Shown: positions 1-5,873 of the stretch, piece by piece | How the letters are laid out: each line of letters starts with the position of its first letter | How positions within the stretch are numbered: the first letter of the stretch is position 1 | Assembly (NCBI GenBank): GCA_900299195.1 | Contig: OMIX01000093.1 | Location: 1-64,000 of the forward strand | Direction: 5' to 3' | DNA length: 64,000 nt | DNA from: Deltaproteobacteria bacterium | GTDB taxonomy: Bacteria; Bdellovibrionota; FAC87; UBA2466 | Made by a program: the position numbers and the translations under genes | Notes under the pieces: generated by a model | Seen by the model: the letters and a program-made list of their open reading frames with translations, nothing else | Told to the model about the DNA's origin: nothing | Databases searched by the model: none

Positions 1-286
1 ATACCATCCAGGTCAAAGACTTAAATACGCCCCATCTCATCTCTAACAATTGCGTCTTCTCGAATTCTCCTCTCATGAAAAATCCGAAATACTGGCCTGC
101 AAGCGAAGAAAACTGTTTCAGTAAGGACTGACTGCTCCCATAAATCGCAAAGGCTACCGCCCCCATCATCAGAACAGACAGAACTTCTCGGCTAACCGCC
201 ACAGTTCCCTGTTTACGAAACTCCTCTCGCCGATAGGGCGTCGCAGTTTCGGTACGTTCATCATTTGAGTCGTCGAAAATAGCCAT
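1..286 (-). CDS. flhB: Flagellar export apparatus switch protein FlhB (N-terminal part, runs off the window)
   Basis: The reading frame starts at the ATG at 286 and continues past the left edge, so only about 95 N-terminal residues are visible. They include the FlhB hallmark, an acidic start followed by RTETATPYRREEFRKQGTV, matching the family pattern of T-E-x-A-T-P-x-R-x-x-E-x-R-x-x-G, and then the first hydrophobic segment. FlhB is the cytoplasmic-membrane component of the flagellar type III secretion gate that switches export from rod/hook to filament substrates. It lies 8 bases downstream of fliR in the same orientation, the usual order. The autocleavage site (NPTH) would lie outside the window. 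Confidence 0.9.
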   Translation of the reverse strand, partial: MAIFDDSNDERTETATPYRREEFRKQGTVAVSREVLSVLMMGAVAFAIYGSSQSLLKQFSSLAGQYFGFFMRGEFEKTQLLEMRWGVFKSLTWMV

Positions 287-294
287 AGTTCAAA

Positions 295-1080
295 TTAAAG
301 AGTTTTCAAAAGTAAAATACAGTTTTCACCCATCAGGTTTAGCAAGTTGCCGATATATTCGAGAATTTCCGGAGCTAACAAATAAAGAGCACAAAAACCT
401 AAGAGGATGGTAACTGGGAAACTAAACAACATCACATTGAGCTGGGGCATCAATCGAGAAAGGACTCCCATCACAGCGTTACAAGAAAGAACCAATAATG
501 TGATAGGGGCTCCCATTTGAATCGCTAAAACAAATAAATTTCCAGAAACCTGAGTGATCAACCGGTAGGTATCTTGGTGGGTAAAGCCCGAAACTTGTAG
601 CTTTTGTGTCGCCACATAACTCATTAAAAACAATTTTAATAAATGGTGATGGAGGTCAGTGGTAAACATCACTAAAAGCGCTAGCCAGCTGTGAAGAGGA
701 ACCAAGAGGGATTCATTGCTTTGATTTTGAGGATCAATCAATCCCGCGGTACCAAAACCCATTTGATAACCCACTATCTGAGCCCCAAGATGAATCGCTT
801 CATAAGTTAAATAACAAATAAAACCCATCAAAAGTCCGACTCCGGACTCTTTCAAGGCCAATAAAAAAATCTCACCCCAAGTGTTTGGAAAATCCCCGAT
901 GGAAGTTTTTACGATGGGGAAAAAAGCCAACGACAATGCCAAACAAAGAAGGACCCTAACATTTATCGGGATAGTCTTGTGAGAGAAACCTGGAACTAAA
1001 AGAAAAAAGCCCAGAACACGAATAAATACTGTGAACACACCTAAATATGACATCCAATTATTTGGATAAAGTGCTGTCAT
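295..1080 (-). CDS. fliR: Flagellar biosynthetic protein FliR
   Basis: This 261-residue, very hydrophobic protein has about six membrane segments and the family's usual length. Regions such as YEAIHLGAQIVGYQMGFGTA and the following DPQNQ are characteristic of FliR. FliR combines with FliP and FliQ in the core export gate of the flagellar type III secretion system in the inner membrane. It is the seventh gene of the fliL-M-N-O-P-Q-R-flhB run and is separated from fliQ by only 5 bases, so it is almost certainly co-transcribed and perhaps translationally coupled. Confidence 0.95.
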   Translation of the reverse strand: MTALYPNNWMSYLGVFTVFIRVLGFFLLVPGFSHKTIPINVRVLLCLALSLAFFPIVKTSIGDFPNTWGEIFLLALKESGVGLLMGFICYLTYEAIHLGAQIVGYQMGFGTAGLIDPQNQSNESLLVPLHSWLALLVMFTTDLHHHLLKLFLMSYVATQKLQVSGFTHQDTYRLITQVSGNLFVLAIQMGAPITLLVLSCNAVMGVLSRLMPQLNVMLFSFPVTILLGFCALYLLAPEILEYIGNLLNLMGENCILLLKTL

Positions 1081-1085
1081 GGATT

Positions 1086-1355
1086 TTATCGAATCATGCT
1101 GGGAATGCTTTCAAAAAGCTGAGTGGTGAAATCCATCAGCAAATCGAGCATCCAGGGGGAAAAAATAATCAAAGCTAATAACATGGCGGCCATTTTTGGG
1201 ACGACCGCTAAGGTTGTTTCCGTAATCTGAGTGACTGCTTGGAGGACATTCATCACAACCCCGACGACAAGACCAAACAGCAAAAGCGGAGCAGATAATA
1301 AAACCGCAACTCTCATCGCTTGCCTTGTGATGTCTAAAATTTGTTCTGTTTGCAT
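1086..1355 (-). CDS. fliQ: Flagellar biosynthetic protein FliQ
   Basis: This is an 89-residue protein with two membrane segments separated by a short polar loop, the typical FliQ size. The motifs ITRQAMRVAVLLSAPLLL and LQAVTQITETTLAVVPK match the family; the QAVTQI(T/N)E loop is its most conserved part. FliQ forms part of the FliPQR export gate. It lies 3 bases downstream of fliP and 5 bases upstream of fliR on the same strand. Other small frames overlapping it have no family character. Confidence 0.95.
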   Translation of the reverse strand: MQTEQILDITRQAMRVAVLLSAPLLLFGLVVGVVMNVLQAVTQITETTLAVVPKMAAMLLALIIFSPWMLDLLMDFTTQLFESIPSMIR

Positions 1356-1358
1356 AAA

Positions 1359-2105
1359 TTACCCAAAGCTTTTGACTAACGAACCAATGATAAGCTGCCA
1401 ACCATCCACTAAAACAAATAGAATCAATTTAAATGGTAGTGAAATGACGACTGGCGGTAACATCATCATGCCCATCGCCATGAGGACACTTGCCACCACC
1501 ATGTCTAAAACCAGAAAAGGAATGTAGATCATAAACCCGATCAGAAAAGCTGTTTTTAATTCGGAGATCATAAACGCAGGGATCAACAAATAGGTGGGAA
1601 CATCTGCCCGTTTGGTGGGCATGGGCATATTGGATAGTTTTACAAACAATCCGAGATCTTTATCCCGTGTCTGCTTGAACATGAATTTTCTGATGGCGCC
1701 TTCGGTGTAGGTTAAAGCATCTGCCTGACTTATTTTGTTATCAAGATAAGGGACCAAAGCCTCTTGATGAATCCCTTTCCAAACGGGGGCCATGATAAAA
1801 GAAGTCAAAAACAGAGCGAGCCCGATAATCAATTGGTTGGGAGGAAGAACCTGGGTTCCAATAGCTTGTCGGAGGAACGATAGAACGATGACTATCCTCA
1901 CAAACGAAGTCATCATGATCAACAAGGAGGGAGCTAAAGAAAGAATCGTCAGCATAGCGACGATCTTTAGAACAACAGCCACTTGCTCCGGATTATTAGC
2001 TGCTCCCATGGAAAGCTGCAGAGGAGGTAACATCCCCCCGTCCGACTTAGGGGCTGAATACGCAATCGTCGAAAACAGTTTGAGGGCTATTGATAAAAAG
2101 TTCAT
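1359..2105 (-). CDS. fliP: Flagellar biosynthetic protein FliP
   Basis: The 248-residue protein has an N-terminal signal-like segment and about four membrane helices. Conserved FliP sequence runs throughout: MTSFVRIVIVLSFLRQAIGT, then PPNQLIIGLALFLTSFIM, and near the C-terminus ELKTAFLIGFMIYIPFLVLD and MGMMMLPP. FliP is the main pore subunit of the flagellar export gate. The ATG overlaps the end of fliO by 4 bases (ATGA-type junction), which supports translational coupling. Confidence 0.96.
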   Translation of the reverse strand: MNFLSIALKLFSTIAYSAPKSDGGMLPPLQLSMGAANNPEQVAVVLKIVAMLTILSLAPSLLIMMTSFVRIVIVLSFLRQAIGTQVLPPNQLIIGLALFLTSFIMAPVWKGIHQEALVPYLDNKISQADALTYTEGAIRKFMFKQTRDKDLGLFVKLSNMPMPTKRADVPTYLLIPAFMISELKTAFLIGFMIYIPFLVLDMVVASVLMAMGMMMLPPVVISLPFKLILFVLVDGWQLIIGSLVKSFG

Positions 2106-2911
2106 ACGTTAAAATTCTTTGCTTTCATTTGTTCTTTAACAGCTTCATTAAAGGTTGATTTCTCGAAAAGATTTTCTTCTTCATATTGCTGAGCTAGTTT
2201 TGGAAGATTTGAAAGAAAGGAGACTTGATTTGGAGTGACGCCCAGGAGAACGAACTCCGAACCGACTTTGACTAAGGCAACTCCACTTTTGGTACCTCCG
2301 ACTGGAATGTAACTCAATTGTTCTACGAGATATTTTCGACTTCCGCCCCAGGATCCCTTGGCCTTAGCATATTTCACGAAAAAGAAGGTCGAGGCCCCAG
2401 CTCCCACTACCACTGCGAGAAAGAGACCGATTTGCACCCAATGAAATTCCTTATTTTCTTTTTTCACTGAAGGGCCAGTGTCATTGAGTGGCAATTGCTC
2501 CTCTTTAAGAAGCTCGAGAGTAGAATTTCCCACTTTCGGATATTCTACTTTTAAACTGACCCCCGTTTCATTTTCAGAAATAGCTAATCGGTTTTTGAGA
2601 CCTTCTAATGATCCATTGATCACCACGAGGGCTTTGGCTTGTTTATTAGCGGCCTCGTAAACACTGACACGATGAATAAGAGCATGGGGGGAACTGACAT
2701 CCAACTTCCCTTGATGAACCGATTTCAAATAAGAGTTCCCCAGGGTTACTTCAACTGTGTTTCCGGAAATTTTAAAAGAAGAACCGCTGGGTTTACCCCC
2801 TTCTCCCACCAGTTGCACTAAGGCCTCTTTGTCTCCTCCTACTTTGACAGAAGAGATCTCAAAACCGAAACCGGGCAAAGCCACCAACAAAAGTAAACTC
2901 AAATACCTCAC
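2102..2911 (-). CDS. fliO: FliO-like flagellar biosynthesis protein with long periplasmic N-terminal domain
   Basis: The position between fliN and fliP identifies this 269-residue protein as the FliO equivalent. It has a signal peptide, then about 100 residues of alternating beta-type sequence that loosely resemble an AMIN domain, a linker, one membrane helix around residues 120-145, and a basic cytoplasmic tail containing KYLVEQLSYIPVGGTKSGVALVKVGSEFVLLG in pieces typical of FliO. FliO assists assembly of the FliP ring. Many FliO proteins are shorter and lack the N-terminal periplasmic part. It overlaps fliP and fliN by 4 bases at each end. The AMIN comparison is my inference; FliO identity is well supported by tail and context. 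Confidence 0.8.
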   Translation of the reverse strand: MRYLSLLLLVALPGFGFEISSVKVGGDKEALVQLVGEGGKPSGSSFKISGNTVEVTLGNSYLKSVHQGKLDVSSPHALIHRVSVYEAANKQAKALVVINGSLEGLKNRLAISENETGVSLKVEYPKVGNSTLELLKEEQLPLNDTGPSVKKENKEFHWVQIGLFLAVVVGAGASTFFFVKYAKAKGSWGGSRKYLVEQLSYIPVGGTKSGVALVKVGSEFVLLGVTPNQVSFLSNLPKLAQQYEEENLFEKSTFNEAVKEQMKAKNFNV

Positions 2912-3285
2912 GCTGTTTCTCCTAACTGTCGAATCCTTTGGGCATGACTCACAATATCTGTCAGCCGAATACCAAACTTTTCGTTCACGACAATAACTTC
3001 CCCTTTGGCCACGACTTTATCATTCACTAGAACCTCTAAGGGCTCTCCAGCTAATTTGCTCAATTCAATCACGCTTCCCTTATGAAGCTTAAGCAAGTCT
3101 TGAACGAGTATTTTAGTTCTGCCTAACTCCACACTCACTTTTAGCGGGATATCTAAAATAAGCTCTAAAGAATGGGGATCCTCATTGGAACCAGGGTTCA
3201 CGTGAAGCTTCAACTCGGGTTGAGGAACGTTTGCTTCGGCTTGGTTCGGTTGCTCCTGTTTTGGTTTTGCGCTTTCATTTGCCAT
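2908..3285 (-). CDS. fliN: Flagellar motor switch protein FliN
   Basis: The 125-residue protein has a proline- and glutamate-rich N-terminal leader of about 40 residues and a C-terminal SpoA (surface presentation of antigens) domain with the conserved stretches VSVELGRTKILVQDLLKL, KGSVIELSKLAGEPLEVLVN and GEVIVVNEKFGIRLTDI. FliN forms the bulk of the cytoplasmic C-ring that controls rotation direction. The start overlaps the 3' end of fliM by 11 bases, and the stop overlaps fliO by 4 bases. Confidence 0.95.
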   Translation of the reverse strand: MANESAKPKQEQPNQAEANVPQPELKLHVNPGSNEDPHSLELILDIPLKVSVELGRTKILVQDLLKLHKGSVIELSKLAGEPLEVLVNDKVVAKGEVIVVNEKFGIRLTDIVSHAQRIRQLGETA

Positions 3286-4297
3286 CGGTAGACTCCTGTT
3301 TTTCTTTGGATAAATCTTTGGTTAATCGAACAGCATTATTTCCTCTAAACACTCCCATCATCCCTCGAAACTTAGAAACATCCTGAACGGTTAAAGAGAT
3401 GGGAGAAACGGCATCTTGTCCTAACACAAGAACATCGCCCACTTTAAGCTGACGAATTTGTTTTAACGTTTTCTCGGTCTGGCCCAGGATTCCTCTGACC
3501 TCAAACTCCATTTCCATCAACTCCTTAAGCCAGTGTTCGCTCCATACATTTTCTTCCCCTGGGATCTGTCCAGTGATATTCACACTTAAAGCATGCTGAA
3601 TGGCATCTAACGGATGAATCTGAACCACAAGATCAAAATTTCCTTTTAAATTATCGATTTCAACTTCGCAGTTGACGATAGAGACTTGCTCATTGGGTTG
3701 AATAGTTTCAATGAATTGCGGATTATTTTCTGCCCTTCGATAGGTCAACTTCAATGGATAATTGAAGCTCCAGGCTTGTTCCAAATCTTTCATGGCCATT
3801 AACACAAACTTTTTAATCACTTCGGATTCAATCGATGTGAAATTTTCAGGCTGGACTGTTTTCGTAAATGGCCTTTCTGATCCACCGTAATAGGCATCAA
3901 CGGCTGCATAACCAAAGGTGGAACGACTTACGATTAGCATATGGGCTTTAAGCGATTCACATTCGTAGTTCGACAAATTCAGTGGCCGACTTAGCGAAGT
4001 AAGATAATCGCTAAATTTCACTACCTCACTCTTAATGATTTTGACTGAGACATTCTTTTTCAAGCTTTGCCCCAAGCTCATTCGAAAGTTATTGGCAAAG
4101 CGCTCGTGGATGCCTTTTAGAGCAACCAATTTTCCTTTGGTCATTCGCTCTTGAGAGGTGAGATCATAACGAGGATATTTCTTTGAAACGTCCTCGGGAG
4201 TAGCTTCCACTGTTGGTGAGCCTACAGCCTCAACTTTTCCATCAGTCACTGCGGTCAGTAGAGCATCAATCTCATTTTGTGAGAGAACTTCAGCCAT
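3275..4297 (-). CDS. fliM: Flagellar motor switch protein FliM
   Basis: The 340-residue protein begins with the conserved phospho-CheY-binding peptide (LSQNEIDALL at residues 5-14). A middle CheC-like domain follows, including RFANNFRMSLGQSLKK and RSTFGYAAVDAYYGG, then a C-terminal SpoA domain (VRGILGQTEKTLKQIRQLKV). FliM couples chemotaxis signals to the rotor's C-ring. The intact CheY-binding peptide implies chemotactic control of rotation. It follows fliL by 11 bases. Confidence 0.96.
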   Translation of the reverse strand: MAEVLSQNEIDALLTAVTDGKVEAVGSPTVEATPEDVSKKYPRYDLTSQERMTKGKLVALKGIHERFANNFRMSLGQSLKKNVSVKIIKSEVVKFSDYLTSLSRPLNLSNYECESLKAHMLIVSRSTFGYAAVDAYYGGSERPFTKTVQPENFTSIESEVIKKFVLMAMKDLEQAWSFNYPLKLTYRRAENNPQFIETIQPNEQVSIVNCEVEIDNLKGNFDLVVQIHPLDAIQHALSVNITGQIPGEENVWSEHWLKELMEMEFEVRGILGQTEKTLKQIRQLKVGDVLVLGQDAVSPISLTVQDVSKFRGMMGVFRGNNAVRLTKDLSKEKQESTDGK

Positions 4298-4308
4298 AAA
4301 AATTTCCC

Positions 4309-4977
4309 TTAATTGAAGTGGAATTGAGTAAAAAAGACTTCTTTGATTGAGCCCGTGGTTAAAAGACTGTTAACAGCCTTTTGAACCTCATTTCTTAAGT
4401 TCTTAATTCCATTAGGCTCTTTCAACTCTTTGTAGCTTTTGCTAGAAAGTAAAACAATAATCGCATCTCGGATGGCAGCTCGCTTTTTGGTAACTTCTTC
4501 CTCAACGGAAGGATCACTGAGTTCGAGTTCTAATTGAGTTTGAAGGAATTTAGCTCCTTGATCACTTGAAATATTCACTAAAAAGCTATCCAACGGGTAG
4601 AGAGTCCCTTGCGGTGGAGTGACAAGATCTTTTCCAATCAGTTTGGCTTCAAGTTTTTTTCTTTTTTCTTTTGCTTCAGTGCGCTCTTTTTCTTCTGAAT
4701 TTGAAACTTCAATCAATGCCGTTGTTTTAGTCTGAAGCTCTTTCACTTGGGCAGCCATTTTGTTGACGATCCAACCCATAGCTACCAGCATTCCTACATT
4801 CGCCACTGATACCGCCAAAGTGGAAATACCTAGAAAATCCTTCTTTGGTTTACTTACCGCGTCACCCTCTGAATTAGGCACTACAGATAATTTCGCCTTT
4901 TCTTTCGAGTTTGCTGTGGATTTGTCCTCAGTCTTTTTTGACTCAGCGGATTTTTTTTCGGCAGTAGCTTCGGCCAT
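4309..4977 (-). CDS. fliL: Flagellar basal-body-associated protein FliL
   Basis: The 222-residue protein has an unusually long charged Lys/Glu/Ser-rich cytoplasmic N-terminus (about 48 residues), a single membrane helix around 50-70, a coiled-coil linker and a periplasmic FliL domain ending in the typical RDAIIVLLSSKSYKELKEP and IKEVFFTQFHFN. FliL surrounds the stator units and supports torque. The ATG at 4977 is preceded by a strong AGGGGG ribosome-binding site. This is the first gene of the flagellar operon and lies directly behind the sigma-54 promoter at 5016-5031. Confidence 0.92.
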   Translation of the reverse strand: MAEATAEKKSAESKKTEDKSTANSKEKAKLSVVPNSEGDAVSKPKKDFLGISTLAVSVANVGMLVAMGWIVNKMAAQVKELQTKTTALIEVSNSEEKERTEAKEKRKKLEAKLIGKDLVTPPQGTLYPLDSFLVNISSDQGAKFLQTQLELELSDPSVEEEVTKKRAAIRDAIIVLLSSKSYKELKEPNGIKNLRNEVQKAVNSLLTTGSIKEVFFTQFHFN

Positions 4978-5015
4978 ACGATCCCCCTAAATTTTGATGT
5001 GACATGGCACTCCAG

Positions 5016-5031
5016 TGCAACGAAAGTGCCA
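5016..5031 (-). promoter_or_regulatory. Sigma-54 (RpoN) promoter of the fliL-flhB operon
   Basis: Read on the minus strand this is TGGCAC-TTTCG-TTGCA, an exact match to the core sigma-54 consensus with the invariant GG and GC exactly 10 bases apart. It lies 39 bases upstream of the fliL start codon, predicting transcription start near 5004 and a leader of about 27 bases that contains the ribosome-binding site. Part of it also forms an imperfect inverted repeat with 5003-5010 (ATGGCACT/AGTGCCAT arms). Confidence 0.8.
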
Positions 5032-5067
5032 TAGCAAATAACAATTTTAGGAAGAACTCGATTGATT

Positions 5068-5096
5068 GAAGTGTCAGAGGCTCGAAAGAAGTGTCA
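5068..5096 (-). promoter_or_regulatory. Two phased direct repeats upstream of the sigma-54 promoter (candidate enhancer site)
   Basis: GAAGTGTCA occurs at 5068-5076 and again at 5088-5096 on the plus strand, exactly 20 bases apart (two helical turns). Relative to the predicted fliL transcription start they lie about 65-92 bases upstream. This is where activators of sigma-54 RNA polymerase (NtrC/FlrC-type) commonly bind. The repeats are directly visible; the binding role is inferred. Confidence 0.5.
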
Positions 5097-5174
5097 TAAC
5101 CTTGACGGAGGGACGCCTGTCTATCGTTTTGTTCAAGTGAGGGGTTGCTCGATCAAACTTAGTAGGGCTCGTGA

Positions 5175-5711
5175 TTACCAGCCGCCCATTCCGCCGAAAC
5201 CAAATCCACCAATCGGTGTGCCTAAGTAATTACCCCAGAAAAAATTAGCATTAGCAGTTTGAGGTAACGCCACCCCAGGTCCCATCCAGGAATAGAAGTT
5301 CGTGCTCATGAACTGAAATAACTGCACGTAGGGACCGTAATTCCAGATTGTCGGGAAATAGAGATTCCAAAAAATGGGGAAATTATAGACTCCGCAACCG
5401 TAAGAAGCCGCGTAGATCTGCCAGCGACTCCAAATATTAAACCAAACATATTGGATCGGCGGATGTTGAATGAAGAAATTGTACATCGGCATCCAAGGAT
5501 AAAACTGAGGTGGCATCGCTTGAGGGACCTGAGGATTAAACATCGGAGGCGGAACATTATTTTGGGGCGGATACATTGGAGCCCTGGGTGGTGGTGCTTG
5601 AGTGATCGGGCTATTCGAAAACCCGGGTCTTGTTCCATAAACTCCAAGGTCATTTTTTCCACATCCCGTGAAAAACAGGAACACCAAAACTGTTAAAAGA
5701 CAACGAACCAT
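5175..5711 (-). CDS. Aromatic- and proline-rich putative lipoprotein
   Basis: I do not recognise a family. The 178-residue protein starts MVRCLLTVLVFLFFTGC, a lipoprotein signal with lipobox FTGC, so the mature protein would begin at that cysteine. It continues with a Pro/Asn/Gln/Met-rich segment (residues 30-70), a segment very rich in Trp, Tyr and Phe (70-150), and a Gly/Phe-rich end (GGFGFGGMGGW). I chose the ATG at 5711 over a GTG at 5723 because an AAGG element precedes it. The composition suggests a surface-exposed low-complexity or repeat-like coat protein. It lies downstream of a FliL-like gene. Confidence 0.6.
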   Translation of the reverse strand: MVRCLLTVLVFLFFTGCGKNDLGVYGTRPGFSNSPITQAPPPRAPMYPPQNNVPPPMFNPQVPQAMPPQFYPWMPMYNFFIQHPPIQYVWFNIWSRWQIYAASYGCGVYNFPIFWNLYFPTIWNYGPYVQLFQFMSTNFYSWMGPGVALPQTANANFFWGNYLGTPIGGFGFGGMGGW

Positions 5712-5873
5712 GGTGGACTGCACCTTAAAACCAAACCTTCATGAAACTTTGCCATACCAACAGGCAAAACCTCACCCCTCTATGCAATGGCATGCCATCA
5801 AAGGTACCGTGCCTAAACAGCAGTTTTGTCTCTTAACACGCGAAAAGGAAAGAAACACCGGTGACGAATTTTG

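Follow-up and report, generated by a model that had tools for sequence, protein, structure and literature searches.

Which activator controls the flagellar operon that starts with fliL, and which sequence upstream of its promoter does it recognize? The question arises from the window, i.e. the whole stretch of 64,000 nucleotides that was analyzed, which lies on contig C93 of a draft genome of 2.83 Mb in 128 contigs; in the FliM alignment, the nearest named relatives found are Bdellovibrionales and 'Deltaproteobacteria' metagenome bins, and the source is accordingly an uncultured bacterium of Bdellovibrionales type. A sequence-only reading of this DNA had proposed an operon fliL-M-N-O-P-Q-R-flhB, driven by a sigma-54 promoter and by an NtrC-family flagellar activator acting through a short direct repeat. 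Pfam matches agree with the proposed genes from fliL to fliR:

4309..4977, minus strand: fliL (Pfam FliL, E 7e-22)
3275..4297, minus strand: fliM (Pfam FliM, E 2e-35)
2908..3285, minus strand: fliN (Pfam FliMN_C)
2102..2911, minus strand: fliO (Pfam FliO, E 5e-9)
1359..2105, minus strand: fliP (Pfam FliP)
1086..1355, minus strand: fliQ (Pfam Bac_export_3)
295..1080, minus strand: fliR (Pfam Bac_export_1)
2..286, minus strand: flhB, cut by the contig end
4983..4988, minus strand: Shine-Dalgarno-like AGGGGG of fliL, from the sequence

The proposed end of the operon has instead to be moved. The end of flhB is found on another contig of the same genome (C91), followed by flhA-flhF-flhG-fliA, and in a relative (G003) the operon runs on after flhB with the same genes; thus it reaches from fliL through flhB to flhA-flhF-flhG-fliA, the names of the genes past flhA (flhF, flhG, fliA) being assigned by reading of the sequences. 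Just upstream of fliL, a lipoprotein-like gene (window 5175-5723) gave no Pfam match; a similar gene is present in another genome (G010, L066), where it is preceded by TGGCACTCTTTTGCA. A search of the window against Rfam gave no match.

The promoter itself is assigned from its match to the consensus and from its conservation at fliL across the family:

5016..5031, minus strand: sigma-54 promoter TGGCAC-N5-TTGCA (-24/-12)

The minus-strand sequence TGGCACTTTCGTTGCA (5031-5016) stops 38 nt short of the fliL ATG (4977), contains both the GG at -24 and the GC at -12 and is the only match in the window to the consensus used, TGGCAC-N5-TTGCW, at up to one mismatch. A single perfect site is to be expected by chance now and then, but at up to one mismatch the genome holds 94 sites, against 53 for the reversed pattern. 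A perfect site is found in 11 of the 12 fliL promoters recovered from the family and the order, in support of the proposed promoter, and rpoN, whose presence the proposal implied, was found in the genome (PF04963, E 6.5e-64).

Around the promoter, a TGGCACT...AGTGCCA inverted repeat on the minus strand (window 5000-5031) begins at the -24 element and ends close to the start site. The sequence past the -12, CTGGAGTGSCATGTCAC, hardly varies within the genus and includes one more GTCA half-site:

5000..5005, plus strand: TGACAT, a candidate extra TGAC half-site close to the expected start, in the five same-genus fliL promoters

At a similar place, GTGTCATG is found in the same-genus promoter of the TPR/FlbD-like operon described below; TGACAT possibly represents a further TGAC half-site and is given as a lead only.

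The repeat that had been noticed upstream of fliL consists of two exact copies of GAAGTGTCA on the plus strand, at 5068-5076 and 5088-5096, exactly 20 bp apart; on the coding strand both copies read TGACACTTC. On its own this is weak evidence, and its significance comes from conservation, since TGAC pairs 20 bp apart are kept in related fliL promoters. Comparison with these promoters also brought out one more half-site, absent from the earlier reading, which forms with the distal copy an inverted repeat GTCA-N6-TGAC (5093-5106):

5103..5106, minus strand: half-site 1 (GTCA) of the FleQ-type box GTCAAGGTTATGAC (5093-5106); GYCAA in 12 of 12 family and order promoters
5091..5096, minus strand: half-site 2 (TGACAC), inside the distal GAAGTGTCA copy (5088-5096); TGAC conserved, at -65 from the -24 element
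5071..5076, minus strand: half-site 3 (TGACAC), inside the proximal GAAGTGTCA copy (5068-5076); TGAC conserved, at -45

The resulting array, GTCA-N6-TGAC-N16-TGAC, lies roughly at -65 to -101 from the expected start. Fourteen fliL promoters from this family and order were compared, including two near duplicates drawn from a different collection. Each of the 14 has the TGAC pair with a spacing of exactly 20 bp, against 0.024 expected, and 10 of them have GTCA-N6-TGAC, against 0.027 expected, where the shuffles preserved base composition alone and the genomes are related, so that the events are not independent; in the form GYCAA-N5-TGAC, the inverted pair is found in 12/12 promoters of the family and the order. 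Alignment of 12 promoters gave the consensus cGtCAA-N5-TGACgCt..tt..g.....cTGAC, its half-sites standing at about -75/-65/-45 from the -24 element; in one genome they are found at -86/-76/-56, displaced outward by 11 bp, i.e. about one helical turn. The composite of array and sigma-54 site gave 0 matches with the reversed pattern. The phylum's other families mostly have fliL promoters devoid of the array, although similar activators exist.

These data also bear on whether the repeat is fortuitous or serves a DNA-binding protein other than a sigma-54 activator. When the 197-bp intergenic region was shuffled, 4.5% of the sequences contained some exact 9-mer direct repeat, thus in one sequence alone such a repeat is not rare; against this stand the presence of the TGAC pair in 14/14 promoters, the fixed phase and distance and the match to the box of a sigma-54 activator family. 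A chance origin is very unlikely, and the alternative as a whole can be given hardly any weight.

The 9-mer as such, proposed as the recognition sequence, does not hold: its TTC tail is unconserved in the related fliL promoters, and the conserved core is GYCA-N6-TGACRY with a third TGAC, that is, GYCA-N6-TGAC-N16-TGAC. The exact pair TGACACTTC-N11-TGACACTTC was found nowhere else in a genome-wide search, including near other sigma-54 flagellar promoters, and was rejected as a general flagellar motif, while the array or box, in degenerate form, is found again at two further promoters, those of the TPR/FlbD-like operon and of the TPR gene of the flagellin cluster. TGAC pairs near sigma-54 sites on two other contigs of the same genome (C49, C23) have neither constant spacing nor the inverted half, and were not retained as targets. 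A short repeat in a single genome had pointed to the right place and to the wrong motif.

The conserved core resembles a known element. The FleQ box is described as GTCAAT and ATTGAC, inverted repeats separated by two bases (PMC10723142), and is also given as GTCaNTAAAtTGAC in a study that counts fliL among the FleQ targets of P. fluorescens F113 bearing the motif (PMC6120874). DVU2894, a predicted FlrA/FleQ-like protein of Desulfovibrio, has a predicted box yGTCA-N6-TGACr before its own gene, for which autoregulation was proposed (PMC4641369), and the FlrA site of Vibrio flrBC is GTCA-N6-TGGC, as cited in the same paper.

Which protein of this genome could read such a box? There are 16 clear sigma-54 activators, 15 of which were compared with the HTH of FleQ; the sixteenth was left out because of a stop inside its frame (G000:C71:73557-74051, L048, with one internal TAA, either a broken gene or an assembly error). 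The protein encoded by G000:C25:4947-6308 scored 107, the next 82, and it is the only one of the 15 with a FleQ-like HTH, where the recognition helix is RTTLVEK as in FleQ; this helix is invariant across the phylum in every ortholog with a readable C-terminus. FleQ is also its best PDB match and its AAA+ domain carries GAFTGA. Similarity to FleQ in the AAA+ domain is no higher than for several other activators, so these scores proved uninformative for picking the regulator, and the protein is better called FleQ-like, short of strict FleQ orthology. The same failure of AAA+ similarity to discriminate, together with the number of activators, would leave room for a reader encoded outside the flagellar clusters; since none of the others compared has the FleQ-type recognition helix, and a matching palindrome stands before the FleQ-like gene, we regard this as very improbable.

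The N-terminal receiver of the FleQ-like protein scores below the Pfam cut-off (PF00072, 23.5 bits against 30.2) and inspection of the sequence found no Asp at the usual place, which indicates a degenerate domain devoid of the phospho-acceptor. In the alignment the c-di-GMP-contact residues of FleQ are not kept: in contrast to the Pseudomonas protein, R144, R185, N186, E330 and R334 are replaced by P, K, A, A and K. N186 and E330 take part in c-di-GMP binding. Of the five residues, PMC10723142 discusses R144, R185 and R334. The loss of these contacts makes a c-di-GMP response of the FleQ type doubtful.

The strongest link between the FleQ-like protein and the array is provided by the promoter of the regulator gene. 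Of the 11 genomes searched in the family and the order, 8 have the full palindrome GTCAAT-N2-ATTGAC, absent at fliL, a single time, always just before the FleQ-like gene, and the reversed pattern had no match; if one-base variants are admitted, the palindrome precedes this gene in 14 of 14 genomes. Its right half makes TTGACA, a -35 element with a -10-like hexamer 16-18 bp further on. A palindrome lying over the -35 of a sigma-70-like promoter fits autorepression, and most likely the FleQ-like protein represses its own sigma-70-type promoter.

A second activator is encoded close to the flagellar genes. In same-genus relatives the FleQ-like gene is about 3 kb from a TPR gene, which is followed by a receiverless activator and then by flgB-flgC-fliE; in the genome of the window parts of the TPR gene are found on both C25 and C126, which makes this gene order likely there too. 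The receiverless activator (G000:C126, L110, 17473-18423) has FlbD as best NCBIfam match, at 355.9 bits below the cut-off of 750, hence it is FlbD-like only; its best flagellar PDB match is FlrC. The operon of the TPR gene and this activator has a promoter CGGCAY-N5-TTGCT, with G(A/T)CA-N6-TGAC in 6 of 8 genomes against 0.03 expected; the box is here one base off, GACA-N6-TGAC. The TPR gene of the flagellin cluster (G000:C71, L309, 2652-3815), behind flagellin, fliD and fliS, also has its own sigma-54 promoter, with an array of three half-sites: GTCA-N6-TGTC, again a one-base variant of the box, and a TGAC 19 bp on, in 5/5 genomes.

Conversely, the flgB and flgF promoters carry sigma-54-like sites with the conserved box GGAAA-N4-TTTCC near -77, often also at -55, the boxes being often paired, 19-22 bp apart; they are degenerate in some genomes, among them at flgF in the genome of the window. 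No TGAC array was found at these two promoters, hence the expectation that the repeat would be a common motif of flagellar promoters was not borne out. These boxes are probably read by the FlbD-like protein. The same evidence weighs on the alternative that this protein is the single activator of all flagellar sigma-54 promoters and also reads the array before fliL: its gene directly precedes flgB and its best matches are FlbD and FlrC, yet the flgB and flgF promoters lack the array, its recognition helix (RTLRNKL) is unlike that of FleQ, and its own operon bears a TGAC box, which makes such a role quite unlikely.

The array and the sigma-54 promoter very probably serve the fliL-fliA operon, with the FleQ-like protein as reader and head of a cascade, because the FleQ box has GTCA-N6-TGAC as its core and both the helix and the palindrome match. 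The NtrC-family activator proposed earlier finds here a likely candidate, as the array is kept in position and phase. Starting from the observed sequences, their conservation and the presence and linkage of the genes, we infer binding, activation, repression and the order of the cascade as follows. A dimer of the FleQ/FlrA-type activator would most likely bind the inverted pair GTCA-N6-TGAC, the third half-site would take a further protomer or dimer, and the AAA+ ring would open the sigma-54 complex at fliL. The protein would repress its own promoter through the perfect FleQ box over the -35 and activate that of the TPR/FlbD-like operon; the FlbD-like protein would act through GGAAA-N4-TTTCC on the flgB and flgF operons, and fliA would then serve the late genes.

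This model is similar to those of Vibrio and Pseudomonas, here in a different phylum; the control would be of a known kind in a new lineage. The Pseudomonas FleQ regulon (box GTCAATNNATTGAC) shares the box sequence, the HTH recognition helix, the degenerate receiver and a flagellar operon as target; however, here the box lies upstream of the promoter and there is a third TGAC half-site 20 bp on, which the canonical FleQ box lacks. As in the Vibrio FlrA-FlrBC cascade, a FleQ/FlrA-type protein would be on top and a second activator below, but the latter is FlbD-like and without a receiver, and the top regulator seems to act directly on the fliL-fliA operon as well. DVU2894 of Desulfovibrio has a predicted GTCA-N6-TGAC core before its own gene in common with the FleQ-like protein, but it has no N-terminal domain and carries GAFTHA, in place of the degenerate receiver and GAFTGA. 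Caulobacter FlbD is the best NCBIfam match of the second activator, which differs in its low score (356 against 750), the lack of a receiver and, probably, the box.

A literature search, with many subscription papers outside its reach, found nothing on sigma-54 flagellar cascades of Bdellovibrionota. The locus would offer a concrete candidate regulator, together with its binding site, at the head of the flagellar hierarchy of a Bdellovibrio-like lineage, for an operon ending in fliA, and extend the FleQ/FlrA box past gamma-proteobacteria and Desulfovibrio. A tentative reading is that the whole order shares a cascade of two sigma-54 activators, each with its own box, in which the first is a FleQ-like protein devoid of the c-di-GMP site of FleQ and acts on a three-half-site array. 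Since the operon ends in fliA, which was proposed as the global attack-phase sigma factor in Bdellovibrio bacteriovorus (PMC3627812), the fliL array would then act as a switch ahead of the motile phase; to this reading as a whole we give somewhat less than even weight.

Elsewhere in the genome, a weaker sigma-54-like site with GTCA-N6-TGAC at about -64 (G000:C15:17099-17177, L290) precedes a gene for a secreted-looking Gly/Ser-rich protein, a possible further target. Many of the 15 perfect -24/-12 sites (L001-L015, C49:7410) also stand before genes for secreted-looking proteins, and upstream of some of them lies TTTAGGCAC or TTAGGCAC, which may be bound by a different activator.
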